Position numbers and translations under genes: made by a program | Part shown: in pieces, positions 1 to 42,233 of the stretch | Layout of the letters: each line of letters begins with the position of its first letter | How positions within the stretch are numbered: position 1 is the stretch's first letter | Source of the DNA: Aquabacterium sp. | Lineage (GTDB): Bacteria > Pseudomonadota > Gammaproteobacteria > Burkholderiales > Burkholderiaceae_C | NCBI RefSeq assembly: GCF_014378415.1 | Contig: NZ_JACMNS010000171.1 | Span: forward strand, 1-45,991 | Direction of reading: 5' to 3' | Length of the DNA: 45,991 nucleotides | The notes under the pieces: model-generated | Told to the model about the DNA's origin: nothing | What the model saw: the letters and a program-made list of their open reading frames with translations, nothing else | The model's database searches: none

Positions 1-136
1 GCGACAGCTTGACCAGGCCGCAGGCCAACACCGCGGCCAGCGCCAACCCTGCCAGCGCGGCAGACGCGGCATTCATCCAGCGGATGTCTTGCGGCATCTC
101 GCTGGCATGGGGGTTGAGGGCGGCGTTGGCCAACAT
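1..136 (-). CDS. ftsQ: FtsQ cell-division protein, N-terminal fragment
   Basis: Only the first 45 codons are in the window; the gene continues past the left edge. The reading frame gives a short cytoplasmic N-terminus containing DIRWMNAAS followed by a hydrophobic Ala/Leu-rich stretch, as expected for the single membrane anchor of FtsQ, the bitopic divisome protein that links FtsL/FtsB to late division proteins. It begins 16 bases after the ddl stop, the normal dcw order (ddl-ftsQ-ftsA-ftsZ). The POTRA and beta domains cannot be seen. The identity rests on position and on the N-terminal pattern, so it is good but not complete. Confidence 0.85.
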   Translation of the reverse strand, partial: MLANAALNPHASEMPQDIRWMNAASAALAGLALAAVLACGLVKLS

Positions 137-24268: not shown

Positions 24269-24430
24269 ATGCGGGAAGATGACTGCCTATTCATACAGTC
24301 GACATCCAGCGGCAGCAGCCAGCGTGGCTCGGTGGCGGTGGATTTCGGCATCACGCAGGTGGTCGATAACCTGGGCATCCACGCGGTCATCCACCAAGCC
24401 ATTTTTCCGGACCACGACCTGGCGCTGTAG
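24269..24430 (+). pseudogene. Unrecognised 53-codon ORF, probable gene remnant
   Basis: This frame is too short for the ORF track: ATG after TTGTGA, ending TAG. From about residue 14 it shows strong GC-at-third-position codon use and a protein-like sequence (GSVAVDFGITQVVDNLGIH, then a tail ending PDHDLAL). The first dozen codons look like non-coding sequence, and no ribosome-binding site precedes the ATG. This is what the 3' end of a deleted gene would look like. I do not recognise the family. An intact small protein is the alternative. Confidence 0.4.
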
Positions 24431-24527
24431 GTCTCAACCTACGCCTGTACTTCTGATTGACCGATGGACGGCCGTGCTCTCCCACGCAATACTGGGGCTC
24501 TACCTGCAGTCATGATCGGATTCAGCC

Positions 24528-25436
24528 ATGCTGAAGAATTGGTTCAAGCTTGCCGCTGTGCTGGGCATGCTGGCAACCCTGGTGGGGTGTTCAGCCACGC
24601 GAGCAATCAATGCGCTGGTGCCCAGCGACACCTACCGACTCACCCCCGACGTGGCCTATGGCCCGCAAGCACGCCAGTTGCTGGACGTGTACCAACCCAA
24701 AGGCGAGCCGCCCGATGGGGGCTTTCCGGTCGTGGTGTTCTTCTACGGGGGCACTTGGCACATGGGCGAACGCGCGCAGTACCGCTTCATGGGCGAAGCC
24801 CTGGCGGCGCACGGCATGGTCGCCATGGTGGCCGATTACCGCCTCTACCCCGAAGCGACCTACCCGGGCTTCCTGCCCGACTGCGCCAAAGCCGTCGTTT
24901 ACGCCCTGAACGAATCAGCGCGCTTCAGCGGCAACCCGCGCCGCGTGGTCGTCATGGGCCACAGCGCGGGCGCCTACAACGCCGCGATGATCGCGCTCGA
25001 CCCACGCTGGCTGTCACAGCAAGGCCACCGCGTGTCAGAGCTCGCCGGTTGGATCGGCTTGGCCGGCCCCTACGATTTCATCCCCATCGTTGATCCGCAA
25101 ACACGCGAAACCTTCCACCACCCCGATGTGCCGCTGGAATCCCAGCCCATCCGCCATGTCAGCGCGGCAGCACCGCGCACCTTCCTGGCCGTGGCCAAGG
25201 AAGACAAGGAGGTCAACCCGGAACGCAACAGCGCGCAGTTGGCCGAGAAGCTGAAAACGGCGGGCGTGCCGGTGGATCTGAAACGCTATGACCACGTGGG
25301 CCACATCTCCTTGGTCGGCTCCTTCGCGCAACCCCTGCGCTGGTTGTCACCGGCACTCAAGGACGTGAGCGCTTTTGTCAAAGGCCTGCCTGCGGTGGCC
25401 GGTCGGGATCACGTCAAGCCCAGCGATGTGCCGTGA
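24528..25436 (+). CDS. Lipoprotein alpha/beta hydrolase (esterase)
   Basis: The product has 302 residues. A lipoprotein signal ends in LVGC with Cys21 as the lipidation site, so the enzyme is membrane-anchored outside the cytoplasm. The hydrolase fold follows, with an oxyanion-type FFYGGTWHMG near residue 71 in place of the usual HGG, the nucleophile Ser146 in GHSAGAYN, and a C-terminal histidine in DHVGHISLVGSF. This is the carboxylesterase/BD-FAE-like class (related to ferulate esterases and kynurenine formamidase-like proteins). The substrate is unknown. It converges on the MaoC gene, with only 9 bases between the stops. Confidence 0.88.
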   Translation: MLKNWFKLAAVLGMLATLVGCSATRAINALVPSDTYRLTPDVAYGPQARQLLDVYQPKGEPPDGGFPVVVFFYGGTWHMGERAQYRFMGEALAAHGMVAMVADYRLYPEATYPGFLPDCAKAVVYALNESARFSGNPRRVVVMGHSAGAYNAAMIALDPRWLSQQGHRVSELAGWIGLAGPYDFIPIVDPQTRETFHHPDVPLESQPIRHVSAAAPRTFLAVAKEDKEVNPERNSAQLAEKLKTAGVPVDLKRYDHVGHISLVGSFAQPLRWLSPALKDVSAFVKGLPAVAGRDHVKPSDVP

Positions 25437-27993: not shown

Positions 27994-28002
27994 CGCGAAT
28001 GA

Positions 28003-28884
28003 TCAATACGGCCGCTTGGCCGGCAGGTCAATGCGCTCCTGGTCATCGCCCGGCACGCTCTTGAACAGCCCGTTCTCCCAATCCTGGGCGGCCTGCGCGA
28101 TGCGCTCTTTCTGGCTGGACACGAAGTTCCACCACATCAAGCGGTGCCCATCCAAAGCCGCCCCGCCGATGATCACCAGGCGCGCCTCGGTGCTGGCGCC
28201 ATTGGTCAAGACGCCTCCGTCGTCTAGCACCACCATGGTGTGCGCCGCCACGGCCTCGCCATCCAGGGTCAAGGCCTGGTCCACGGCGTACAGGGCCGCT
28301 TCGTCCGCCAGCTTGGGCAAGGTCAGGCTTTGCCCGGCCGCCAGCTTGATGTCCAGGTACAAGGTGGGCGACAAGGGCTGCACCGGCGAGGTCACGCCCC
28401 AGGCCGAACCCACCAGCACCCGGATGGTGGCGCCTGGCTCATTCACTTCGGGGATCTGGTCCGCCGGCGTGTGCGCAAACGTGGGCGCCGACTCCTCATG
28501 CGCTGGCGGCAGCGCCACCCACAACTGCAGGCCATGCGTGTGGCGGTCCGCGTGCTTCAAGTCATCGGGCGTGCGCTCCGAATGCACGATGCCGCGCCCC
28601 GCGCTCATCCAGTTGATGGCGCCCGGCTCGATGCGCTGCACCGTGCCCAGGTTGTCGCGGTGCATCATCGCGCCCTCGTACAGGTAGGTCACCGTGGCCA
28701 GCCCAATGTGCGGGTGCGGCCGCACATCGCTGCTCATGCTGGGCGCTTGCACCACGGGCCCGAAGTGGTCAAAGAAAATGAACGGCCCGACCGACTGACG
28801 CGCCGCCGCCGGCAACAGGCGGCGCACCACAAAACCACCGCCAAAATCGGATTGGTGGCCTGTCAATGTCAATGTGATTCCCAT
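28003..28884 (-). CDS. Pirin-family bicupin protein
   Basis: The ORF track starts 29 codons too early; AGGAG eight bases before the ATG of MGITLTLTG fixes the start, giving 293 residues. The N-terminal cupin shows the pirin metal ligands in RPHPHIGLATVTYL (two His), the third His in GAMMHRDNLG-type context or in GIVHSE, and a Glu in HSERTP. GPFIFFDHFGPV is a classic pirin start. Pirins bind Fe or Ni; some act as quercetin 2,3-dioxygenases, others as metal- or redox-dependent regulators. Which applies here cannot be told. Confidence 0.93.
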   Translation of the reverse strand: MGITLTLTGHQSDFGGGFVVRRLLPAAARQSVGPFIFFDHFGPVVQAPSMSSDVRPHPHIGLATVTYLYEGAMMHRDNLGTVQRIEPGAINWMSAGRGIVHSERTPDDLKHADRHTHGLQLWVALPPAHEESAPTFAHTPADQIPEVNEPGATIRVLVGSAWGVTSPVQPLSPTLYLDIKLAAGQSLTLPKLADEAALYAVDQALTLDGEAVAAHTMVVLDDGGVLTNGASTEARLVIIGGAALDGHRLMWWNFVSSQKERIAQAAQDWENGLFKSVPGDDQERIDLPAKRPY

Positions 28885-28929
28885 GGTGCTTACTCCTCGT
28901 CCGATGCTGCATTGTGACTTGGCACCAGC

Positions 28930-28961
28930 AAAAAAACCCGACCAGGTTGCCCCGGCCGGGT
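28930..28961 (-). terminator. Rho-independent terminator of the OmpA-domain gene
   Basis: On the minus strand, ACCCGGCC / GGTCGGGT (one G-T pair) with a 10-base loop runs into a T tract. It begins about 30 bases after the stop of the OmpA-domain gene. Confidence 0.85.
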
Positions 28962-28991
28962 CATGTCTCAAACCTCAAACAGCGATGCCGA

Positions 28992-29732
28992 TCAGCGGGG
29001 CGAACCCACGGCTTCGATGATCACGCGGCGATCCGGTGCGAGGCACTCAACCAGCTTCTTGTTCTTGCCGTTGTCCTTGCCCTGGCAATCGGTGCCCGTC
29101 ACAGGCTGGCTTTTGCCACGGCCTTCGATGTAGACGCGGTCAGCCGGCACGCCCTGGCCCACCAGGAAGTCCTTGACGGACTGTGCACGGCGCTCGGACA
29201 GCTTCTGGTTGTAGGCCTCGGAGCCAATGCGGTCGGTGTGACCCACGGCCACCACGGCTTCCAAGTTCAGCGTCTTAACCTTGCCGGCAAAGTCGGTGAG
29301 CTTGTCCTTGCCCGACGTCGACAAAGACGACTTGTCGAACTGGAACAGCGCATCAGCCGGGATCGTCACCTTTTGCGACGTGGCCATGGGGGCTGGGGGC
29401 GGGGCCATGGGCTCAGGCGGCGGGGTCACGACCGCGACAGGCTTAGGCTCACAAACCGCCTTGGGCATCAGGTCCTTGTCGCAAATGCAACCGGCAGGGA
29501 AGTCGCTGCCCACCACCGGGGTGTTCTGGGCCAACTCGGCCGTCCAGTAGCCCGTGCGCCAGCACTGGCCCGTCGAATTGCGCACGATCATGCGTTGCGA
29601 ATCGAGCAGGTAAGGCGTGTTGGTGGAGGCGGGCGGCACCGTGATCGACGGCAAACTTTGCGCACGCGCACTGTTTGAGATACCAAACGCGGCACACACC
29701 ACCAGTGCAGCCACCATCAATTTGCGATTCAT
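28992..29732 (-). CDS. OmpA-domain envelope protein
   Basis: The start is MNRKLMVAAL, with AAGGA six bases upstream, giving 246 residues; the track start is too long. A signal peptide ends near SARA-QS. A middle region of about 90 residues contains four or so cysteines (CWRTGYW, CICDKDLMPKAVCEP), then a Pro-rich linker and a C-terminal OmpA/MotB peptidoglycan-binding domain (LFQFDKSSLS, VGHTDRIGSEAYNQKLSERRAQSVKDFL, NRVYIEGRG-like, DRRVIIE). It probably links the outer membrane to the cell wall. There is no obvious eight-strand barrel. The 12-mer CGTCCTACAGGG lies 99 bases upstream of the ATG, shared with a DUF1328 gene at 36.3 kb. Confidence 0.93.
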   Translation of the reverse strand: MNRKLMVAALVVCAAFGISNSARAQSLPSITVPPASTNTPYLLDSQRMIVRNSTGQCWRTGYWTAELAQNTPVVGSDFPAGCICDKDLMPKAVCEPKPVAVVTPPPEPMAPPPAPMATSQKVTIPADALFQFDKSSLSTSGKDKLTDFAGKVKTLNLEAVVAVGHTDRIGSEAYNQKLSERRAQSVKDFLVGQGVPADRVYIEGRGKSQPVTGTDCQGKDNGKNKKLVECLAPDRRVIIEAVGSPR

Positions 29733-29831
29733 GATCATTCCTTTCAACACTAAAAACTCGGGGGACATATGAAACATTTGAAGTGATTGTGTCGAAAGGG
29801 GCAGGCCCGATCTGTCGGGCATGCCCTAGAA

Positions 29832-29843
29832 CCCTGTAGGACG
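29832..29843 (-). promoter_or_regulatory. CGTCCTACAGGG box upstream of the OmpA-domain gene
   Basis: On the minus strand this 12-mer is identical to one at 36229-36240 in front of a DUF1328 gene, in the same orientation and at a similar distance (99 versus 84 bases) from the start codon. A GCCCGA-TCTG-TCGGGC hairpin lies between box and gene at 29805-29820. Half-sites with the same CCTACA core lie at 33656-33689. It is likely an activator site for a regulator of this island; which protein binds is inferred. Confidence 0.5.
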
Positions 29844-29904
29844 ATGCCGATATCCGTGTCAGCGGACGCCGACTTTGCTCAGGCGGCATCCGCAGGCATC
29901 GTCA

Positions 29905-30687
29905 TCACTGCATGAACCAACCATGGCTGACCACCAATGACTGACCGGTCAGCGCATTGGTCGGGAAGGACGCGAACATCAGTGCCACCTGGGCCACGTC
30001 CTGGGTGGTGGTGAACTCGCCATCCACGGTCTCTTTCAGCATGACGTTCTTGATGACTTCGTCCTCGCTGATGCCCAAGGTCTTGGCCTGCTCAGGGATC
30101 TGCTTGTCCACCAAAGGCGTGCGCACAAAGCCGGGGCAGATCACGTTGGCGCGCACCTGGTGCTTGGCACCCTCCTTGGCCACCACCTTGGCCAGGCCGA
30201 TCAGGCCGTGCTTGGCCGTCACGTAGGGCGCCTTCAACAGCGAGGCCTCTTTGGAGTGCACCGAGCCCATGTAGATGACCGAGCCACCCCGACCGGCGGC
30301 ATACATGTGCTTCAAGCAAGCCTTGGTGGTCAGGAAGGCACCATCCAGGTGAATGGCCAGCATCTTCTTCCAATCGGCAAATTCAAACTCCTCGAGCGGG
30401 TGCACGATCTGCACGCCGGCATTGCTCACCAGGATGTCGACCGAGCCAAAACGGTCCACCGTGGCTTGCACGGCCTGGTTGACCTGGTCTTCTTGCGTCA
30501 CATCCACGGCCACGCCGATGGCCTGTGCGCCGCTGGCCACCAGCTCGGCGGCCACCGCATCGGCCGCCGCCTTGTTCATGTCCGCGATCACGATACTGGC
30601 GCCTTCCTTGGCAAACAGAATGGCGATCTCCTTGCCGATGCCGCTGGCCGATCCGGTGATGAAGGCAGTCTTGTCTTTGAGCAACAT
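29905..30687 (-). CDS. bdhA: 3-hydroxybutyrate dehydrogenase (SDR family)
   Basis: From [12 protein letters not shown] (260 residues; the track start is 51 codons too early) this is a short-chain dehydrogenase. It has the NAD loop [25 protein letters not shown], the catalytic YVTAKHG (Y-x-x-x-K), [22 protein letters not shown] and the C-terminal HGWFMQ, all characteristic of D-3-hydroxybutyrate dehydrogenases. It interconverts 3-hydroxybutyrate and acetoacetate with NAD, normally in polyhydroxybutyrate turnover. The HGWFMQ ending and [14 protein letters not shown] segment make the subfamily call firm. It is monocistronic, and the gap to the divergent BON gene is 201 bases. Confidence 0.95.
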
Positions 30688-30888
30688 GTGGGAGTCCCGA
30701 GAAGGTGAAGTAAGGAAGGTGCCCGACAGGTTATTCCCGTTTGAATACCCGGCCTGTCGGCGTTGTCTGACAACACACCGTGGCGTTGACTGATGCCGAC
30801 TCAACGAGCTCCCGCCTATTCTGAGGTCACCGGTTGACACCTTGAGTCGTCAAACCCTTTGTCCCATTGAACTCGGAAGGACCACACC

Positions 30889-31308
30889 ATGAACCACCGC
30901 CTTTTTCTGATGGCACCGCTGACCGCCGCCCTGTTGGCCCTGGCCGCCTGCGACAGCAAGACCCCCACAACAGAGACGGCAGGCCAGAAGCTTGACAGCG
31001 TCATTGCCAGCACCGAACATCAAACCGAGCAGCTCAGTGCCGAAGCCAAAGTGAATGCGGCACAAGCCAAGCAGGACACCTCCGACGCACTGCGCGACGC
31101 CTCCATCACCACCCGCGTGAATGCGCAGTTGGCGACCGACCCCGCGCTCAGCGCCATCAAGATTGATGTGGACACCAGCAATGGCCATGTCCGCCTGAGC
31201 GGCACCGCACCCAATGACTTGGCTCGCGCCCGCGCCACCACCATGGCCTCCGCCGTCACCGGCGTCATCGCTGTGGACAACCAATTGAAGATCGACAAGA
31301 AGTCCTGA
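30889..31308 (+). CDS. BON-domain lipoprotein, copy 1
   Basis: This 139-residue protein has a lipoprotein signal ending LAAC with Cys21, a Gln/Ala-rich helical linker, and one BON domain from about residue 62 (ALRDASITTRVNAQLATDPAL, VDTSNGHVRLSGTAP, VTGVIAVDNQLKI). BON domains bind phospholipid or envelope surfaces; OsmY is the best-known stress-induced example. AGGA lies upstream of the ATG. It heads a same-strand run with the DUF1328, DUF883 and holin-X proteins. A second, shorter BON lipoprotein occurs at 36.55 kb. Confidence 0.92.
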   Translation: MNHRLFLMAPLTAALLALAACDSKTPTTETAGQKLDSVIASTEHQTEQLSAEAKVNAAQAKQDTSDALRDASITTRVNAQLATDPALSAIKIDVDTSNGHVRLSGTAPNDLARARATTMASAVTGVIAVDNQLKIDKKS

Positions 31309-31356
31309 TCTCTTTTTGAATGCAGCCCTGCAACGCTGCACAACCAGGAGCACCTC

Positions 31357-31521
31357 ATGCTGCACTACGCCGTTGTCTTTTTCGTGATCGCGATCATCGC
31401 GGCCCTGTTTGGTTTTGGGGGCATTGCCGCCAGCGCCGCAGGGATCGCCAAATTGCTGTTTGTGGTTTTTGCCGTGCTGGCCGTGGCCAGTTTTCTCGTC
31501 AGCCTGATCAAGAAAACCTGA
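31357..31521 (+). CDS. DUF1328 mini membrane protein, copy 1
   Basis: This 54-residue protein (below the ORF-track cutoff) starts at an ATG preceded by AGGAG. It is almost entirely hydrophobic: two membrane segments joined by [14 protein letters not shown], the hallmark of the DUF1328 (YtjA-like) family, and a LIKKT end. Function is unknown; relatives are usually found near stress-response genes. A paralogue lies at 36325-36501, likewise beside a BON lipoprotein gene. Confidence 0.92.
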
Positions 31522-31573
31522 CCCCCGTCGGTTTCACTTGCATTGCTGTTAATCACCCTCGAAAGGAAATTCC

Positions 31574-31960
31574 ATGAATACCCCCATCAAGTCCTTCCAA
31601 CAAACCGCCTCGGAAGCGGCCGATAACGCCACCCAAACCGCTGACGGAGCCATCAAGTCCACGCAGCGCGCGGCCAACAATGCGCTCGACAACCTGGCGG
31701 ACAGGGTGCATGAAGCCAGCGACCAAGCCGCCCCGCTCATCGGCCGCTTGAGTGCCCAAGCCGAAGCCCTTGGCCGCAAGACAGTTGACGCCGTGCGCGA
31801 AGGCTCCAAGCGCGCGCGCCTGCAAGCCACCAACGCGGCCAACTCCACCGTCAGCTACATCAAGGAAGAGCCCGTCAAGTCGGTGCTGATCGCCGCAGCC
31901 GCTGGTGCCGCGCTGTTCGCCATCGCCAAGCTGGTGAGCCGCAACCGCGACCGCACCTAA
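31574..31960 (+). CDS. DUF883 family (ElaB/YqjD-like) membrane-anchored protein
   Basis: The product has 128 residues. The N-terminal about 90 residues are Ala/Gln/Glu-rich amphipathic helix without hydrophobic runs, followed by YIKEEPVKSVLIAAAAGAAL-type C-terminal anchor and a basic tail (SRNRDRT). E. coli YqjD of this family is induced in stationary phase, sits in the inner membrane and binds ribosomes; the same role is possible but not shown here. GAAAGG precedes the ATG. The next two genes match the E. coli yqjD-yqjE-yqjK order. Confidence 0.92.
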   Translation: MNTPIKSFQQTASEAADNATQTADGAIKSTQRAANNALDNLADRVHEASDQAAPLIGRLSAQAEALGRKTVDAVREGSKRARLQATNAANSTVSYIKEEPVKSVLIAAAAGAALFAIAKLVSRNRDRT

Positions 31961-31992
31961 CACCGAAGAACCTTGCCCCAGGGAGCTGCCAC

Positions 31993-32385
31993 ATGATGCG
32001 TCCACTGCTTCAACTGATGGCCACCGAGCCCGAGCTGCTGAGCGAGCACTTGCAGTCGTACGCAGAGTTGTTGGGTGAAGAAATGGGCAGCTTCCAGGGG
32101 CAGTTCAAACGCCATTGGGTCACGTTCGCGGTGCTGGCTTTGCTGGCCACCGTGACCTTGATCCTGGTTGGCGTTGGGCTCATGCTTTGGCTCATCACGC
32201 CCAGCGCCCAATTGCAGCAGTTGCAGTTGCCCTGGGCTCTGTGGCTGGTGCCCTTGGGCATGGCCGCACTGTGCGCCGCCATCGCCGTGATCATGAAACA
32301 AGAAGAGCGCACGCCCGGCTTCCAGGCCTTGCGCCAGCAAATCGCCGCCGACGTGGCCATGCTCAAGCAAGCGACCTCGTCATGA
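31993..32385 (+). CDS. Holin-X/YqjE family membrane protein
   Basis: This 130-residue protein has two strong membrane segments (about residues 45-70 and 83-105), preceded by an acidic amphipathic helix (LQSYAELLGEEMGSF). The arrangement matches the 'phage holin family' PF07332/YqjE proteins, which in proteobacteria are chromosomal envelope proteins and not lysis genes. It lies between the DUF883 gene and a third membrane protein. Its TGA overlaps the next ATG (ATGA), so the pair is probably co-translated. No phage gene is nearby. Confidence 0.85.
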   Translation: MMRPLLQLMATEPELLSEHLQSYAELLGEEMGSFQGQFKRHWVTFAVLALLATVTLILVGVGLMLWLITPSAQLQQLQLPWALWLVPLGMAALCAAIAVIMKQEERTPGFQALRQQIAADVAMLKQATSS

Positions 32386-32885
32386 GCAAGCCAACACGTT
32401 CACCCCTTCCCGCCGAAATTCGCCTGCAACAGTCCCGCGAACGCATCCGTCTTTGGCTGACGCCCCCCGATGAGGCCCCCGACGAAGAAGGCGAATCGTC
32501 AGGCCCCGCGCTGCCTGAGCAACTGCAGGCCTGGATGCGAGAACTGCGCGAACACCCCATCCTGTCCTCAACCTTCAACGCCCTGCAGGGCTGGTGGGAA
32601 AGCCACCCCTGGCGTCCCGCCACCCACCTGGCCAGCGGTCTGGTTCGAGAGGCCCTTCAGCCCCTGGCCAAAAAACATCCGCTCGGCCTGGTGCTGGTGG
32701 CCGCCGCCATCGGTGGCTCACTGGTCTGGTTCCGGCCCGGCCGTGGCTTGGTCAAATCCTTGCTGATCAAAGGCGTGGTCTCGCAATCGGTGTTGGGCCT
32801 GGCCAAACAGCCCTTTGTGGGCACGCTGGCCAACAGCGTCATCACCTGGATGCACCAACTGTCCACCCCCCGTCAACAACCCTGA
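32382..32885 (+). CDS. YqjK-position membrane protein
   Basis: The 167-residue product begins at the ATG overlapping the previous stop; the longer track ORF is out of frame with real genes before that. The first about 60 residues are charged (LRLQQSRERIRLWL-type helix, then an acidic DEAPDEEGESS stretch). Then comes a hydrophobic segment, HPLGLVLVAAAIGGSLVWF, followed by RPGRGLVKSLLIKG, which resembles the end of YqjK. It completes a yqjD-yqjE-yqjK-like trio, though it is longer than E. coli YqjK (about 100 residues). Function is unknown. Confidence 0.82.
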   Translation: MSKPTRSPLPAEIRLQQSRERIRLWLTPPDEAPDEEGESSGPALPEQLQAWMRELREHPILSSTFNALQGWWESHPWRPATHLASGLVREALQPLAKKHPLGLVLVAAAIGGSLVWFRPGRGLVKSLLIKGVVSQSVLGLAKQPFVGTLANSVITWMHQLSTPRQQP

Positions 32886-32906
32886 CGTTTCAAGCGCACC
32901 GACCCA

Positions 32907-32948
32907 AGCAAAGAGCCTGCATCTTTTAACGGATGCAAGCTCTTTGCT
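32907..32948. terminator. Long bidirectional hairpin between convergent genes
   Basis: AGCAAAGAGC...GCTCTTTGCT forms a 10-bp outer stem, and TGCATC...GATGCA a 6-bp inner stem separated by a one-base bulge on each side, with an 8-base loop. It lies between the convergent yqjK-like and cysteine-repeat genes. The T and A tracts are short (CTTT on the plus side), so termination in both directions is likely but may be weak. Confidence 0.75.
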
Positions 32949-32984
32949 TTGCCAGACCACAGGCCCCCGAAGGAGCCGCTTGCC

Positions 32985-33536
32985 TTACTTCTTGTAGTGC
33001 ATCTTGGCGCTGTCCATGCAGCTTGACTTGGCATCGCCCGACAGGGCATCGCACTTTTCCTTGGCCACCTTGTAGTCGGCGCCCATCTTGTCTTCAACGG
33101 CTTCCTTAGAAGCATCGCCCACTTCCTTGTTCAGCTTGGCTTCGGCCTTGGCCTTGGTTTCCATGGCCTTGGCTTCTTTCACGCAGACGTCCTTGTCGTT
33201 GCCGGTCTTGTCATCGCACTTTTCCTTGGCGACGTCATAAGCCGTTTCGGCCTTCACATCGGCCAGGTGCTTGCGGTCGCCAGCCTTGCCCGTGTAGTGG
33301 TATTCCAGCTCGGCCTTGGTGACCTTTTCTTTGCCCTTGGCTTCGGCCACGCAGATATCCTTGGCGTTGGCGGTCATCTTGTCACAGGCTTCCTTGTCGG
33401 CCTTGTAGGTGGCGGTGGCGGCGTCCTTGCCGACACGGTAGTCGGCCTTGGTGATCGTGCCGGCTGCATTCGCATACGACACGGCGCTCAGGCAAAGGGC
33501 CAGGACAGCGGCTTGGATGGTGGTGGTTTTAGACAT
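32985..33536 (-). CDS. Secreted Lys/Ala-rich protein with paired-cysteine repeats
   Basis: From MSKTTTIQAAV, preceded by AAGGA (183 residues; the track start is 84 codons too early), the protein has a signal peptide ending near YANA-AG. It then has three similar segments, each with two cysteines about nine apart: CDKMTANAKDIC, CDDKTGNDKDVC and CDALSGDAKSSC, each followed by an AEAK-type stretch. The rest is Lys/Ala/Glu/Asp-rich and probably helical. I recall similar Burkholderiales proteins annotated as 'cell envelope biogenesis protein TolA', but there is no TolA domain, so the name is misleading. Each cysteine pair could form a periplasmic disulfide hairpin. Function is unknown. Confidence 0.85.
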   Translation of the reverse strand: MSKTTTIQAAVLALCLSAVSYANAAGTITKADYRVGKDAATATYKADKEACDKMTANAKDICVAEAKGKEKVTKAELEYHYTGKAGDRKHLADVKAETAYDVAKEKCDDKTGNDKDVCVKEAKAMETKAKAEAKLNKEVGDASKEAVEDKMGADYKVAKEKCDALSGDAKSSCMDSAKMHYKK

Positions 33537-33655
33537 GGTGAGTTCCTTGCGAGTAGTTAAGTTATCGACCCATCGTTGCCGACAGGCTGAACTCCAGTGT
33601 CCAAAAACCGCCGCCTTCCCCCAACCAGACGGTGCCGCAAGCGCTCGTAGTTTTT

Positions 33656-33689
33656 GTCCTACGCAAGAAACTGTAGGTGAGTTCCTACA
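33656..33689. promoter_or_regulatory. CCTACA/TGTAGG palindromic operator candidate
   Basis: The perfect inverted repeat TGTAGG-TGAGTT-CCTACA (33672-33689) is preceded by a third half-site in TGTCCTACG (33655-33663). It lies 136-153 bases before the start of the cysteine-repeat gene and 93-110 bases before the receiver gene, so it may serve both. The half-site core is the same as in the CGTCCTACAGGG boxes at 29832 and 36229. NarL-family regulators typically bind paired short inverted half-sites, and one is encoded 500 bases away. Confidence 0.55.
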
Positions 33690-33781
33690 AACAGCTAGGA
33701 GATCTTCCAATGGCGCCGCCCACAGGCTGCGGCGATAATTCATTGAGACATTCACACACCGCCACACAGACTGAGCAGTCA

Positions 33782-34189
33782 ATGACACCCCTGAAAGCCT
33801 TCATCGTTGAGGACAGCCCGGTGATTCGCGAGAACCTCATCGCGACGCTGGAAGAGATGGTGTCCTTGCAGGTGGTGGGCACGGCCGAAGACGAAGCCAA
33901 TGCGGTGGCCTGGCTGAATGACGGCAACAACGTTTGCGACCTGGTCATCGTCGACATCTTCATCAAACGGGGATCAGGGCTGGGCGTGCTGCAAAAAACC
34001 CACCCGGCGCCTTCAGCGCGAAAGCACGTTGTGCTCAGCAACTACGCCACGCCCGACATGCGCCGACGCTGCCTGGAGTTGGGCGCCGACCAGGTCTTCG
34101 ACAAATCAAACGAGATCGACAGCCTGATCGATTACTGCGTGGCGCTGGTCAACCATGACCACAGCGCCAGCAGCCCCGACGCTCACTGA
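33782..34189 (+). CDS. Stand-alone response regulator receiver
   Basis: This 135-residue protein contains only a receiver domain: acidic pocket in FIVEDSPVIRENL, phospho-acceptor Asp in LVIVDIFIKRGSG, Ser in VVLSNYATPDMRRR and Lys in DQVFDKSNE. All residues needed for phosphorylation are present, but there is no output domain. It may signal by protein contact, or drain phosphate from the neighbouring kinase. The last seven bases overlap the convergent NarL-type regulator gene, an arrangement that ties it to that system. Confidence 0.9.
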   Translation: MTPLKAFIVEDSPVIRENLIATLEEMVSLQVVGTAEDEANAVAWLNDGNNVCDLVIVDIFIKRGSGLGVLQKTHPAPSARKHVVLSNYATPDMRRRCLELGADQVFDKSNEIDSLIDYCVALVNHDHSASSPDAH

Positions 34190-34815
34190 ATCAAGCCGTT
34201 CTTGAGCGCGTAATAGGTCAGGTCGCTGTTCGAAGCCAGGTTCATTTTTTCCATCACACGCGAGCGGTAGGTGCTCACGGTCTTGACGCTCAGGGACATG
34301 CTGTCGGCCATGTGGCCAATGGTCTCGCCCTTGGCCAGCCGCAGAAACACCTGGAACTCGCGCTCGGACAGTTGCTCGTGCAAGGACTTGTCAGGATCAC
34401 CGCCCAGGCCATCGGCCAGCATTTCAGCCACGCCGGCGGTGATGTATTTACGGCCACGGAACACGGTGCGGATGGCCTTGACGATTTCTTCAGGGTCGCA
34501 CTCTTTGTTGAGGTAACCGCTGGCGCCCTGGCGCAGCAAGGTCAAGGCGTAATGTTCTTCAGGGAAACCGCTCAGGATCAACACCGGCAAGTCAGGGGCA
34601 CGGGCCCGGATGGCCGCCAGCGCATCGACGCCGCTTTGATCGGGCATGGACAGGTCCATCACCAGCACGTCCACGTCACCAGCCCGCACCAGCTCCAGGG
34701 CCTCTCGGCCGTTGGAGGCTTCACCCGTGACCTTCAGGTCCACCTGGTCGGAGAAAAACTGACGCAGTCCGGCGCGCACGATGGCGTGGTCGTCAATGAT
34801 GGCAATTCGAATCAT
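34183..34815 (-). CDS. NarL/FixJ-family response regulator
   Basis: Starting at MIRIAIIDDHAIVRAGL (210 residues; the track start is 20 codons too early), this regulator has a receiver domain with DD at residues 8-9, phospho-acceptor Asp in VLVMDLSMPDQSG, and Lys in GYLNKECDPEE. A LuxR-type helix-turn-helix follows (LSEREFQVFLRLAKGETIGHMA, VKTVSTYRSRVMEKM). It is divergent from a CHASE3 histidine kinase with only 28 bases between start codons, so the two form a two-component pair. It is the most likely binder of the TGTAGG/CCTACA sites in this island, by proximity and family. Confidence 0.95.
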   Translation of the reverse strand: MIRIAIIDDHAIVRAGLRQFFSDQVDLKVTGEASNGREALELVRAGDVDVLVMDLSMPDQSGVDALAAIRARAPDLPVLILSGFPEEHYALTLLRQGASGYLNKECDPEEIVKAIRTVFRGRKYITAGVAEMLADGLGGDPDKSLHEQLSEREFQVFLRLAKGETIGHMADSMSLSVKTVSTYRSRVMEKMNLASNSDLTYYALKNGLIQ

Positions 34816-34843
34816 GGTCGACGTTCGATCAGTTGGAAGTAGG

Positions 34844-36196
34844 ATGATGACGATGATAAGCCTGACACAGATCAAACGCAGTGCCTACGCCTTTCCGTTG
34901 GCGGCATTGGCGGCGCTGGCCATGCTCTTCATCAGCGAGACCTCGTACTGGCAGGCCACGGACTCCATGGATGACATGGGCATGATGGCCCAGGCGCGCT
35001 CACAGATCAACACCTTGCTGCGCCGCCTGGTCGATGCCGAAACCAGCCAGCGCGGCTATTTGCTGACCAACCGCAAAGAGTACCTGGCGCCTTTGAACGG
35101 TGCCATCGACGACAGCAATGACGCCCTCAAATGGCTCGTCCAGTACTACGCCAAAGACACGGCCCATCAAAAAAGCGCCCAGGAGTTGCAGATCCTGACG
35201 CAGCGCAAGCTGGGCGAGGTGGCCATCACCATCCGCCTGCACGACGAGGGCAAAGATGAAGCCTGGCGCGCCATGGTCCTGTCCAACATCGGCCAGCAGG
35301 ACATGGAGTCGGTGCGTGCCGTGGCCACGGAGTTGCTGAAGGGTGAAACCAGCAAGGTCACGACCGCCCACGCGGACGTGCACAACACCCTGATGCTCAA
35401 CCGCATCGGCGTGGCCGCCATGACCGCCATCAGCTTCCTGGCCCTGACCATGTTCCTGGCGCAGACCAACGCGCTCAACGCTCAACGCCTGGCCCAAAGC
35501 CAGGCCGTCCAGGCCGAGCGCGACCAGCTGGAGTTCGAGGTCAAGCGGCGCACCACACACCTCACCGACCTGACCCGCTACCTGCAAACTATCCGCGAAG
35601 ACGAGCGTGGCCGCCTGGCCCGCGAACTGCACGATGAACTGGGCGCTTTGCTCACCGCCGCCAAGCTGGATGCCGCCCGCATCAAGTCGCGCCTGGGCAC
35701 ACTCACGCCCGAGTTGGCTGAGCGCCTGGCCCACCTCAACGACAACCTCAACGAGGTGATCGCGCTCAAGCGCCGCATTGTTGAAGACCTGTGCCCTTCT
35801 TCATTGAGCACACTGGGCCTGGTGGCTGCGCTGGAGATTCAGTCGCGCGAGTTCGCCACGCGCTCGGGCCTGCTGGTTGACTGCCACCTTAATGCCGTCA
35901 GCCTGAGCCCCTCGGCCGCGCTGACCGTGTACCGCCTGGTGCAAGAGGCCTTCACCAACATCGCCAAATACGCCAAGGCCAAAACCGTCACGGTGGACCT
36001 GAACGCCCTTGATGGCCAGGCCTGCATTGCCGTGAAAGACGACGGTGTGGGCTTTGATCCTTCGCAACAACCCAGCTCGGCGCACGGCCTGCTCGGCATG
36101 CGTTACCGCGTCGAGGCCGAAGGCGGTGAGCTGGTCCTGGAGTCATCGCCCGGACAGGGCACGCGCATCGGTGCCACCGTGCCTTTGGTTGCCTGA
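34844..36196 (+). CDS. CHASE3-domain sensor histidine kinase (HisKA_3)
   Basis: From the first of three closely spaced ATGs with GGA six bases upstream, the product is about 450 residues. A membrane segment (FPLAALAALAMLFI) is followed by a periplasmic helical CHASE3-like domain (LRRLVDAETSQRGYLLTNRKEYLAPL), a second membrane segment, and a HisKA_3 dimerisation domain with the phospho-acceptor in ARELHDELGALL (about His263). The HATPase has VQEAFTNIAKYAKAKTVTV, DDGVGFDP and HGLLGMRYRVEAEGGEL. This kinase type pairs with NarL-type regulators such as its divergent neighbour. The signal is unknown; CHASE3 often senses envelope or osmotic conditions. Confidence 0.94.
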   Translation: MMTMISLTQIKRSAYAFPLAALAALAMLFISETSYWQATDSMDDMGMMAQARSQINTLLRRLVDAETSQRGYLLTNRKEYLAPLNGAIDDSNDALKWLVQYYAKDTAHQKSAQELQILTQRKLGEVAITIRLHDEGKDEAWRAMVLSNIGQQDMESVRAVATELLKGETSKVTTAHADVHNTLMLNRIGVAAMTAISFLALTMFLAQTNALNAQRLAQSQAVQAERDQLEFEVKRRTTHLTDLTRYLQTIREDERGRLARELHDELGALLTAAKLDAARIKSRLGTLTPELAERLAHLNDNLNEVIALKRRIVEDLCPSSLSTLGLVAALEIQSREFATRSGLLVDCHLNAVSLSPSAALTVYRLVQEAFTNIAKYAKAKTVTVDLNALDGQACIAVKDDGVGFDPSQQPSSAHGLLGMRYRVEAEGGELVLESSPGQGTRIGATVPLVA

Positions 36197-36228
36197 GCAA
36201 CTCATTCGACGACAGTGTCACGGGGCGC

Positions 36229-36240
36229 CGTCCTACAGGG
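36229..36240 (+). promoter_or_regulatory. CGTCCTACAGGG box upstream of DUF1328 copy 2
   Basis: Identical at all 12 positions to the box at 29832-29843 and in the same orientation relative to its gene; 84 bases separate it from the DUF1328 ATG. It lies 33 bases after the kinase stop codon. Shared half-site CCTACA with the palindrome at 33672. The role as an activator site is inferred. Confidence 0.5.
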
Positions 36241-36324
36241 GAATGCGCGGAACGCTGATGGCTGCATCGACCGTGGAAACCTAAAGTTTCTACATCGACA
36301 GACCTCAATTTCCTGGAGATGTTC

Positions 36325-36501
36325 ATGCTGAAGTGGGCACTGATTTTTGCGGTGATTGCTCTGGTGGCCGGCCTGTTCGGCTTCACCGGCATCGCCGCCG
36401 GTGCAGCAGGCATTGCCAAGTTTTTGTTCGTGCTGTTCCTTGTGCTGTTCATCGTCGTGGTTGGCCTGGCTTTGCTGGGCATCGGCGCGATCAAGAAATA
36501 A
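36325..36501 (+). CDS. DUF1328 mini membrane protein, copy 2
   Basis: This is a 58-residue hydrophobic protein from [12 protein letters not shown] six bases before this ATG favours it over the ATG two codons upstream. Two membrane segments flank [14 protein letters not shown], the family signature, and the C-terminus is GAIKK. It is paralogous to the protein at 31357-31521. It is followed at once by a BON lipoprotein gene; in the first locus the BON gene precedes DUF1328. Confidence 0.92.
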
Positions 36502-36549
36502 GCCAAGCCGATTTCACCCTTGTTTCCCGCCCCTAAAAGGAGAATTTCC

Positions 36550-36870
36550 ATGTTTTTCAACAAACGCACCGCCGCTGTTCTGGCCCTGGCCGCCTCGTCA
36601 ATGATCATCATTTCCGGCTGCGCCGTGACGCGCGATCAATCCACCGTGGGTGAATACGTCGATGACGCTGCCGTCACCACCAAGATCAAGGCCAAGTTCG
36701 TGGACGCCAAGTCGGTAGACGCAGCCGCCATCCATGTCGAAACCTTGAACGGCACCGTGATGCTGTCGGGCTTTGCCAAGAGCCAGAACGAGAAGGACTC
36801 GGCCGCCGCCATCGCCCGCGATGTCAAGGGCGTGAAGTCGGTCAAGAACGAAATCGCTGTTCGCCCTTGA
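36550..36870 (+). CDS. BON-domain lipoprotein, copy 2
   Basis: This 106-residue protein starts at MFFNKRTAAV with a strong AAGGAG site. A lipoprotein signal ends ISGC, and a single BON domain spans about residues 45-105 (AAVTTKIKAKFVDAKSVDAAAIHVETLNG, VMLSGFAKSQ, VKGVKSVKNEIAV). It is OsmY-like in type and probably periplasm-facing. It is shorter than the copy at 30.9 kb and lacks that protein's linker. It is likely co-transcribed with the DUF1328 gene 48 bases upstream. Confidence 0.92.
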   Translation: MFFNKRTAAVLALAASSMIIISGCAVTRDQSTVGEYVDDAAVTTKIKAKFVDAKSVDAAAIHVETLNGTVMLSGFAKSQNEKDSAAAIARDVKGVKSVKNEIAVRP

Positions 36871-36945
36871 TTTAGAAATGTGGCGCCATTCTGAAAAAGT
36901 CTTTGAACGGTTTCAGGGTGGCGCTGCCATCACAGGGAGGACCCC

Positions 36946-37203
36946 ATGAACTCGAATCCCCATGACCTGGACGGCGTCGATTTGTGGTTTTTCGGTGGCA
37001 CACCGTGCCCTGATGATCTGGGCGAGGCCTGCACGTTAACTTCACACCGCGCCCCGCCGATCGACCAAGATGACACCAAGAGCCCCGCTTTTGCGCACCG
37101 ATGCCACTGCGGCGAACCCCGTGCGCGGCCAGGGCGCCCATCCGAAATCGATCACGTGGTGCCGCGCGAAGACCAAGCGTCGCTGATGTCATGCCATGTT
37201 TGA
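36946..37203 (+). CDS. Hypothetical 85-residue protein
   Basis: GGGAGGA followed by CCCC and ATG is a strong ribosome-binding arrangement, and the frame uses GC-rich third positions at first, less so later. The protein is polar and hydrophilic with four cysteines plus a terminal one, including HRCHCGEPR and GTPCPDDLGEAC, which could bind metal. No family is recognised. It lies between the stress island and the Fur-box-like site of the feo operon; it ends 28 bases before that box. Confidence 0.5.
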   Translation: MNSNPHDLDGVDLWFFGGTPCPDDLGEACTLTSHRAPPIDQDDTKSPAFAHRCHCGEPRARPGRPSEIDHVVPREDQASLMSCHV

Positions 37204-37231
37204 CCTGCCTCAAGCCGTGTGACAGAAACAA

Positions 37232-37250
37232 GTTGCGAATCGTTCGCATT
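37232..37250 (+). promoter_or_regulatory. Fur-box-like palindrome upstream of feoA
   Basis: GTTGCGAATCGTTCGCATT contains the perfect inverted repeat TGCGAA-TCG-TTCGCA, close to the betaproteobacterial Fur boxes built on (A/T)GCGAAT and ATTCGCA. It lies 18 bases before the feoA ATG, where a bound repressor would block transcription or initiation. A TTTAGAAT sequence just downstream could be the -10. Repression by iron-loaded Fur is expected from Feo biology, not demonstrated here. Confidence 0.75.
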
Positions 37251-37268
37251 TGAATTTAGAATGGGTGG

Positions 37269-37541
37269 ATGAAATCTGCTCACGCCACCGCTTCTTCGTC
37301 CATCACCCTGGACACGCTGCCTGTGCGTGTGGTGGCCACCATCCGAAGCATCCGCACCGCCACCAAAGACGGCGCGGCCCTTAAACGCCGCCTCATGGAG
37401 TTGGGCTTCGTCCCCGGAGAGCGGGTTGAGGTGCTGCGCCGCATGTTCGCTGGCAGCGGCCCACTGGCCGTGCGCGTGGGCACCAGCACCTTCGCCATGC
37501 GCACCCTCGAATCCTCCATGATCGAAGTGGTCCACGCCTGA
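37269..37541 (+). CDS. feoA: Ferrous iron transport protein FeoA
   Basis: This 90-residue SH3-like cytosolic protein partners FeoB. Recognisable are ALKRRLMELGFVPGERVEVLRR and PLAVRVGTSTFAMR, the FeoA core, ending MIEVV. It lies 25 bases before feoB and immediately behind a Fur-like palindrome. The N-terminal about 15 residues are a low-complexity Ser/Ala extension, which makes the start slightly uncertain. Confidence 0.95.
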   Translation: MKSAHATASSSITLDTLPVRVVATIRSIRTATKDGAALKRRLMELGFVPGERVEVLRRMFAGSGPLAVRVGTSTFAMRTLESSMIEVVHA

Positions 37542-37566
37542 CCCTTGCGAACCGGCAGTTCCCGTC

Positions 37567-39471
37567 ATGTCTGATGCGGCCTTAGCGCCTGTCCCCACTT
37601 CCCCCTTGACCGCCCCGCTGATTGCCCTGGTGGGCAACCCCAATTGCGGCAAAACCGCGTTGTTCAACCGCCTAACGGGGGCCCGCCAAAAGGTCGGTAA
37701 CTACGCCGGCGTGACGGTGGAGCGCAAGGAAGGCCAGTTCGTGTCGCCCGCCGGCCAGGCCTGGCGCGTGCTTGACCTGCCCGGCGCCTACAGCCTGCTG
37801 CCCACCACGCCCGACGAGACCATCACCCGCGACGTGATCGCAGGCACGCGCCCCGGCGAAGCCAGCCCCGTGGGCCTGGTCTGCGTGGTGGATGCCACCA
37901 ATCTGCGCTTAAACCTGCGCATGGTGCTGGAGCTGCAATCTCTTGATGCGCCCATGGTGCTGGTCGTCAACATGATGGACCTGGCCCGCAAACGCGGCAT
38001 CCACATTGATGTGACCCGACTGCAAGACGAGTTGGGCGTGCCCGTGATCGAAGCCGTGGCCGTGAAGGCCGGTGGCGAGCAAGCCTTGCTGGCGCAGCTG
38101 GACCGCCTGGACTGGACCAAACTTTCCAGCCAACCCGCCATTCGCCGCGTCGACCGCATTGCCGCCATCCCGGTAGAAGCCACCCACCAGCGCGTGAGCG
38201 AGTTGCTGACGCGGTGCGTGGTGATGCCCGCCTCTGGCCCCAGCCTCACCGCCCGAATCGATCAATACGCCTTGCACCCCGTGCTGGGCCCCGCGATCCT
38301 GGCCGTGCTGATGTTCCTGGTCTTCCAGGCCGTGTTCAGCTGGGCGGCCGCGCCCATGGAATTCATCGACACCGGCATGGGCGCGTTTGGTCAATGGGTG
38401 GGCGCCCACATGGGCGAAGGCATGCTGCGCGGCCTGCTGGTGGACGGCATCATCAGCGGCACGGGCAGCGTGCTGGTCTTCCTGCCGCAGATCCTGATCC
38501 TGTTCTTCTTCATCCTGGCCCTGGAAGATTCCGGCTACCTGCCCCGCGCTGCCTTTTTGCTGGACCGGGTCATGGGCAGCGTCGGCCTGTCGGGCCGCGC
38601 CTTCATCCCGCTGCTGTCCAGCTTTGCCTGCGCCATCCCCGGCATCATGGCCACGCGCACCATCGCCAATCCGCGCGACCGCCTGGTGACCATCCTGATC
38701 GCGCCGCTGATGACCTGCTCGGCCCGCCTGCCGGTGTACGCGCTGCTGATCGCCGCCTTCATCCCCAGCCAAACGGTGGGCGGCATCTTCAACCTGCAGG
38801 GCCTGGTGCTGTTCGCCTTGTACGCGGCCGGCATCCTGGCGGGCCTGATCGTGGCGCTGGTGCTCAAGCTGTTCATGCGCCAGTCGCACGCGCAGCCCTT
38901 GCTGATGGAGCTGCCCGACTACCACTGGCCGCACCTGCGCAACCTGGCGCTGGGCTTGTGGGAGCGCGCGCAGATTTTCGTCACGCGCGTGGGCACCATC
39001 ATCCTGGCCTTGATGGTCATCCTGTGGTTTTTGTCGACCTACCCGGCCCCGCCGCTGGATGCCACCGGCCCGGCCATCGAGTACAGCCTGGCGGGCATGG
39101 CCGGTCGCGCGCTGCAGGTGATTTTTGAGCCGATTGGTTTCAACTGGCAGATCTGCATTGCGCTGGTGCCCGGCCTGGCTGCGCGCGAAGTGGCGGTCAG
39201 TGCCTTGGGCACCGTGTACGCCATGTCACAGACCGGAGATGCCCTGACCGGCGCCTTGACCACCGTGATCGGGCAAGCGTGGTCCCTGCCCACCGCCTTG
39301 TCGCTGATGACCTGGTACGTGTTCGCCCCGCAATGCCTGTCCACCATGATCGTGGTCAAGCGTGAAACCAATGGCTGGGCCGTGCCCCTGGCCATGACGG
39401 CCTACCTGTTCATCTTGGCCTATGCGGCCTGCTGGGTGGTCTACCGCCTGGCCCTGGCCTGGGGGGCGTGA
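37567..39471 (+). CDS. feoB: Ferrous iron permease FeoB
   Basis: FeoB imports Fe(II) across the inner membrane. Its 634 residues start with a GTPase domain (G1 GNPNCGKTALFN near residues 23-34, VGNYAGVTVER, DLPGAYSL, NMMDLARKRG) followed by a membrane domain with gate-type motifs: LEDSGYLPRAAFLLDRVM, PLLSSFACAIPGIMATRTI and LMTCSARLPVYALLI. The two Cys of these gates (in SSFACAIPG and MTCSAR) are present. It is shorter than E. coli FeoB (773 residues), like other betaproteobacterial forms. It is followed by a cysteine-containing small membrane protein. Confidence 0.97.
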   Translation: MSDAALAPVPTSPLTAPLIALVGNPNCGKTALFNRLTGARQKVGNYAGVTVERKEGQFVSPAGQAWRVLDLPGAYSLLPTTPDETITRDVIAGTRPGEASPVGLVCVVDATNLRLNLRMVLELQSLDAPMVLVVNMMDLARKRGIHIDVTRLQDELGVPVIEAVAVKAGGEQALLAQLDRLDWTKLSSQPAIRRVDRIAAIPVEATHQRVSELLTRCVVMPASGPSLTARIDQYALHPVLGPAILAVLMFLVFQAVFSWAAAPMEFIDTGMGAFGQWVGAHMGEGMLRGLLVDGIISGTGSVLVFLPQILILFFFILALEDSGYLPRAAFLLDRVMGSVGLSGRAFIPLLSSFACAIPGIMATRTIANPRDRLVTILIAPLMTCSARLPVYALLIAAFIPSQTVGGIFNLQGLVLFALYAAGILAGLIVALVLKLFMRQSHAQPLLMELPDYHWPHLRNLALGLWERAQIFVTRVGTIILALMVILWFLSTYPAPPLDATGPAIEYSLAGMAGRALQVIFEPIGFNWQICIALVPGLAAREVAVSALGTVYAMSQTGDALTGALTTVIGQAWSLPTALSLMTWYVFAPQCLSTMIVVKRETNGWAVPLAMTAYLFILAYAACWVVYRLALAWGA

Positions 39472-40036: not shown

Positions 40037-40070
40037 CCCCCAACAGGCCAACTTGGCATTACACTGGCCA

Positions 40071-40181
40071 CTGCTCCGGGGTGTGCCTCGCGATGAATCC
40101 TTGTTCATCGTGTTGCGCTGAGATGGTCAACGACCGAACCCGCTGAACTTGATCCGGCTCATACCGGCGAAAGAAGAGCTG
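40071..40181 (+). promoter_or_regulatory. TPP riboswitch (THI element) aptamer
   Basis: The conserved THI-box parts are present in order: GGGGTG near the start, GCTGAGATGG (the pyrimidine-recognition loop), and ACCCGCTGAACTTGATCCGGCTCATACCGGCG, quoted here only as its recognisable pieces CTGAAC, TGATC and TACCGGCG. The flanking GCTC (40073-40076) and GAGC (40176-40179) form the closing stem. It binds thiamine pyrophosphate and lies before thiC, where it should shut the operon off when TPP is abundant. Confidence 0.95.

Positions 40182-42233
<2,052 letters not shown>

Follow-up and report, generated by a model that had tools for sequence, protein, structure and literature searches.

Organization of the locus

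The window, the whole stretch of 45,991 nucleotides of Aquabacterium sp. DNA that was analyzed, carries an island of genes around a two-component system. A lone receiver gene (33782..34189, plus strand) encodes a REC-only protein (Pfam Response_reg, E 3.4e-15) which keeps the acidic pair, the phospho-acceptor Asp and the Lys. Next to it, on the minus strand, lies the gene for a NarL-type response regulator (34183..34815), followed on the plus strand by a gene (34847..36196) whose domain matches identify a CHASE3-HisKA_3-HATPase sensor kinase, the presumed partner of the regulator. The regulator combines a REC and a GerE domain and thereby has the domain composition of the NarL/FixJ family (Pfam Response_reg 3.5e-29, GerE 1.2e-14). 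Its best NCBIfam family is UvrY/SirA/GacA (NF007018), with a score of 171 bits that is below the curated cut-off of 280, and it is 37% identical to UvrY of E. coli. The recognition helix (KTVSTYR, within SVKTVSTYRSRVMEKM) is like those of EvgA and UvrY and unlike those of NarL or RcsB. Divergently from the receiver gene, a gene on the minus strand (32985..33536) encodes a secreted cysteine-repeat protein with a signal peptide and repeats, for which no Pfam or NCBIfam family was found. The protein is built of repeated Cys-containing units (KEACD...AKDICVAEAK), and many genera have homologues close to the corresponding receiver gene. Elsewhere in the window, a TPP riboswitch (40067-40192, plus strand; Rfam RF00059, 65.2 bits) is located 5' of an open reading frame starting at about 40300, a thiC-like position.

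A preliminary description of this DNA had pointed to a perfect TGTAGG-N6-CCTACA palindrome between the two divergent genes, and its sequence, arms and coordinates proved exact when re-checked. The palindrome is the 18-mer TGTAGGTGAGTTCCTACA (TGTAGG-TGAGTT-CCTACA; 33672..33689, plus strand), and the exact pattern TGTAGG-N6-CCTACA has a single copy in the whole 3.83 Mb genome. Palindromy alone is little evidence, because the window contains, irrespective of sequence, 18 inverted repeats that are perfect in the 6-N6-6 form. Unlike this bare symmetry, the particular sequence is non-random: with up to two mismatches TGTAGG-N6-CCTACA was observed 8 times versus 0.52 expected, and CCTACA occurred 16 times versus 5.0 expected. 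Two models were used to score the site. A sequence-only covariance model built from 27 receiver promoters matched 33672..33689 with 31.8 bits (E 9.4e-9 for the window and 7.7e-7 genome-wide), this promoter being itself among the 27 training sequences. The composite model, which was trained without the genus of the window and without the receiver promoter of the window, gave this promoter a score of 34.8, the best control score being 12.5.

The palindrome is conserved upstream of the lone-receiver gene in Burkholderiales

Eighty Burkholderiales loci were collected via the neighbouring NarL-type regulator. Fifteen exact copies of TGTAGG-N6-CCTACA were present in 14 of these loci and none in the reversed control, and exact arms with spacers of 4, 5, 7 or 8 nucleotides were absent from all 80 loci. 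In annotated loci the box was recurrently located immediately 5' of the lone-receiver gene. When the 700 bp 5' of this gene were scored in 82 Burkholderiales loci, an 18-mer matching at 11-12 of 12 positions was found in 63 of them, compared to 0/82 for the reversed controls. The box of the receiver gene was still there in most sampled loci in which the regulator is only 71-74% identical. In one genome (G008) a 50%-identical regulator is adjoined by a box of its own, TGTAGGCCGACGCCTACA (L250:1137-1154), so that the box may reach beyond the orthologue group.

The palindrome keeps fixed distances to a predicted promoter whose -35 region is poor

An alignment of 64 non-redundant loci anchored on the box revealed two further conserved blocks past it. 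One is CCGATGG, at +35..41; the other, at +62..67, is a -10-like hexamer with the variants gATAAT, cATACT and gACACT. Sequences similar to CCGATGG (5 of 7 or better) were found at offset 35 in 32/64 loci, and no other offset had them in more than 4. The -10 motif was found at offset 62 in 30/64 loci and one position further, at offset 63, in 9; the median for the remaining offsets was 0. The corresponding elements in the window are CCAATGG in the -35 region of the receiver promoter (33707..33713, plus strand) and the -10-like GATAAT (33734..33739, plus strand). The predicted transcription start is near 33746, about 36 nt 5' of the ATG of the receiver gene, which puts the centre of the box near -66. 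A search for a consensus sigma-70 promoter at the receiver promoter found none, because the -35 is poor. The CCGATGG block equals the -10 in conservation but shows no likeness to TTGACA; it may represent a non-canonical -35/sigma contact or a weak third half-site. Class I activators have their operator at a fixed distance 5' of a promoter whose -35 is poor, and the receiver promoter has this layout. Given the fixed distance of about 66 bp and the poor -35, an activator-dependent promoter is therefore expected. The fixed distances to the CCGATGG and -10 blocks place the palindrome in the promoter and support the earlier idea that it is an operator.

A second predicted operator belongs to the cysteine-repeat gene

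The preliminary description had also mentioned a third half-site near the palindrome, in the gap between the two divergent genes. The half-site (TCCTACG) exists, and it makes up the right arm of another predicted operator at 33646..33663 on the minus strand (CGTAGTTTTTGTCCTACG on the plus strand, CGTAGGACAAAAACTACG on the minus strand) and not a part of the palindrome. This operator reached a composite score of 17.8 versus the control maximum of 12.5, and CGTAGTTTTTGTCCTACG is conserved in 5/5 compared Aquabacterium-type genomes. In these five genomes the gap between the 33646-33663 box and the palindrome varies by indels, which rules out the half-site as part of the operator of the palindrome. 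At the standard distance from the second operator lies a -10-like GACACT (33596..33601, minus strand) of the cysteine-repeat gene. Instead of sharing a single operator, the two divergent genes each have one of their own, the palindrome belonging to the receiver promoter.

Related predicted operators are located 5' of other genes of the island

The composite model identified operators 5' of five genes of the window, with the receiver gene ranking highest and followed by a BON operon (28.2), a hydrolase gene (27.8), an OmpA-family gene (27.4) and the cysteine-repeat gene. The covariance model recovered the same set and added a sixth operator in a DUF1328 promoter; its E-values are weak for two of the operators, those at 24426 (0.07) and 33646 (0.16). 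The operator of the BON-DUF1328-YqjD-YqjE operon, TGTCGGCGTTGTCTGACA (30755..30772, plus strand; 15.8 bits, E 0.001), is followed by CTGATGC (30790-30796) and TATTCT (30817-30822) on the same strand. That of the OmpA-family gene (28992-29732, minus strand) is TATCGGCATCGTCCTACA (29835..29852, minus strand; 12.5 bits, E 0.012). An alpha/beta-hydrolase gene (24528-25436) is preceded by TGTAGGTCTCAACCTACG (24426..24443, plus strand; 10.0 bits, E 0.074), with CCGATGG at 24461-24467 and AATACT at 24488-24493 on the plus strand. The operator added by the covariance model (36220..36237, plus strand; 14.4 bits, E 0.0029) belongs to a DUF1328-BON promoter, in which CTGATGG (36255-36261) and TAAAGT (36282-36287), both on the plus strand, lie at the standard distances; its left arm is weak and its right arm strong. 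The two copies of a 12-mer that had been noted before, CGTCCTACAGGG at 29832-29843 (minus strand) and 36229-36240 (plus strand), are both present, one overlapping the OmpA operator and the other lying partly within the DUF1328-BON operator. They hold the strong arms of these two operators, which can be seen as copies of the putative operator with reduced symmetry, each 12-mer marking the stronger arm.

Co-occurrence of the box and the NarL-type regulator

The regulator (E <=1e-70) and the composite module of box, CCGATGG block and -10 (E <=1e-3) were called in 251 genomes of the family. The regulator was present in 129 and the module in 45, distributed as 44 of the 129 genomes with the regulator versus 1 of the 122 without it (Fisher p 7e-14). 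Of the 68 module sites, 24 lay no more than 2.5 kb from the regulator, a further 11 no more than 25 kb from it, 32 beyond that distance or on another contig, and 1 came from a genome lacking the regulator. The 32 unlinked sites, which belong to 21 genomes, showed the same tendency on their own when set against the single site without a regulator (p 6e-6); both Fisher p values are indicative only, as related genomes are not independent. At a distance from the regulator, the module precedes, among others, BON genes, a CsbD-YqjD-YqjE cluster, OmpA-family genes and glycine-zipper lipoprotein genes, where we take the names CsbD and glycine-zipper from reading the sequences and not from database matches. 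In nearly all loci the box adjoins the island regulator, and it is tied to a gene cluster in which this NarL-type protein alone is evidently DNA-binding; co-occurrence by itself does not distinguish the regulator from its neighbours in the cluster.

Within the genus, the short palindrome pattern TGTMGGANNNNTCCKACA was counted 33 times versus 17 for the control in genomes with the regulator and 55 versus 66 in genomes without it (p 0.018), a weak signal because short patterns are noisy, which made the composite module necessary. In the genome from which the window comes, modules outside the island are weak (next-best E 0.01) and mostly inside genes; we do not claim them as operators, and the regulon may be small there. 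One weak module, ATGCGGTGATGTCCTACA ... CGCCGATGC (L159, about 1496-1560; contig C137 near 19702-19760), is located 5' of a gene for a ferritin-like protein, a possible further regulon member.

Comparison with known response regulators

The published GacA/UvrY box is TGTAAG-N6-CTTACA (PMC4950607; PMC8523701), and activating GacA sites lie at -75 (rsmY) and -196 (rsmZ) (PMC4950607). The box described here is the same type of 18-bp palindrome with 6-bp arms and an N6 spacer, its arm TGTAGG differing from TGTAAG by one base, and in both systems sites lie about 66-75 bp 5' of the start. The regulators belong to the same NarL-type subfamily and have the same kind of recognition helix. The right arm, however, varies to CCGACA or CTGACA among the loci, and the palindrome of the window, with its arms TGTAGG and CCTACA, is not a literal TGTAAG-N6-CTTACA. 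In one relative (G080; L203, about position 1500) the orthologous receiver promoter has the GacA box in its literal form, TGTAAGAATTGTCTTACA, and CCGATGG and CATACT are found there at the usual distances from it.

The targets of Gac/Rsm and BarA/UvrY are small RNAs that bind CsrA/RsmA, whereas the predicted targets here are protein-coding stress and envelope genes and the lone receiver. An Rfam search of 28000-38000 returned no match, and the predicted start is only about 36 nt from the ATG of the receiver gene. The kinase of Gac/Rsm is the hybrid BarA/GacS, in contrast to the CHASE3-HisKA_3-HATPase protein of the island. The box is thus GacA-like, yet the system falls outside Gac/Rsm by the family cut-off, the kinase type and the small-RNA target.

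EvgA of E. coli was compared by protein alone. Its recognition helix (SNKTVSTYKSRLMEKL) is almost that of the regulator (SVKTVSTYRSRVMEKM), and the two proteins are 28% identical overall. NarL and NarP are of the same protein family, and the HisKA_3 kinase is NarX/NarQ-like, but their recognition helix (TESTVKVHVKHMLK) differs. Nor do TGTAGG arms separated by N6 correspond to the half-site of NarL or to its 7-2-7 spacing.

Alternative explanations for the palindrome

As the GacA-box promoter of csrA1 of Marinomonas is reported to be repressed, the box could be a repressor operator through which the regulator blocks promoters. This is unlikely in our view: the centre near -66 is clear of the -35 and -10, the poor -35 points to an activator, and the rsmY GacA site at -75 activates. 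The position predicts activation, without proving it. The operator might also be bound, in place of the island regulator, by another GacA/UvrY-like protein, such as the 44%-identical one encoded on contig C43, whose recognition helix (KTVSVYR) is very similar; such regulators may share sites. A homologue of about 44% identity is, however, present in nearly all 42 genomes of the genus, yet strong modules (E <=2e-4) track the island regulator, beside which the box is almost always found, and occur in 6/12 genus genomes with it versus 1/30 without it. We therefore regard binding by the homologue as improbable.

The palindrome could also be an RNA hairpin or a transcription terminator, for instance of leftward transcription, since the minus strand resembles a terminator at 33690-33671, where a 7-bp stem is followed by TTTCTTG. 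In the alignment, however, the pair of columns 6-17 (the fourth pair) is broken in 19/27 sequences without compensatory change, the flank contains no conserved T-run, and no Rfam family matched in 28000-38000. A hairpin would also leave the fixed link to the downstream -10 unexplained, and this reading is very improbable. The uncompensated broken pair and the position 5' of the -10 contradict the possibility, raised at the outset as a refutation of the operator, that the palindrome acts only as an RNA structure. That the palindrome arose between the two genes by chance has hardly any probability left: such repeats are common enough in the window (the 18 noted above), but more than 60 loci keep the box at the same gene and the same distance, and conservation of the arms, the N6 spacing, the gene and the distance rules chance out.

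A putative regulon of envelope and general-stress genes

Taken together with the form of the known GacA/UvrY box, the conserved arms and N6 spacing and the co-occurrence with the regulator support the original proposal that the palindrome serves a dimeric NarL-type regulator as its operator. With high confidence, we propose that the palindrome is the operator of the regulator encoded at 34183-34815, in a CHASE3-kinase system that would activate the receiver gene and envelope and general-stress genes. A signal sensed by the kinase would lead to phosphorylation and dimerization of the regulator, and the helix-turn-helix of each subunit would occupy one arm of TGTAGG-N6-CCTACA. Centred about 66 bp 5' of the transcription start, the dimer would bring RNA polymerase to a promoter with a usable -10 and a poor -35. 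The first target would be the lone-receiver gene, whose product may compete for phosphate or tune the kinase and in this way form a feedback loop. Copies of the module would turn on the BON, OmpA-family, DUF1328, YqjD/YqjE, cysteine-repeat and hydrolase genes of the island; in other genera, genes for CsbD and for glycine-zipper lipoproteins would be turned on as well. The envelope and general-stress theme of these targets is suggested by their gene families.

No description of the motif or the regulon was found in the literature searched, most subscription journals being outside its coverage. We lean, with some reserve, towards an undescribed Burkholderiales regulon, in which a GacA-like regulator outside the CsrA small-RNA pathway would directly activate sigma-S-like envelope and stress genes, with feedback by the receiver. 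The analysis provides a candidate binding site, a promoter architecture and a target list for a two-component system present in about half of the sampled genomes of the family. It would link CHASE3 sensing to CsbD, BON, OmpA, DUF1328 and YqjD-type genes, and a GacA-like box would here be used for the direct control of protein genes. In E. coli, yqjD and yqjE are raised by RpoS (PMC10746276), and the system may for this reason be an alternative wiring of the general stress response.
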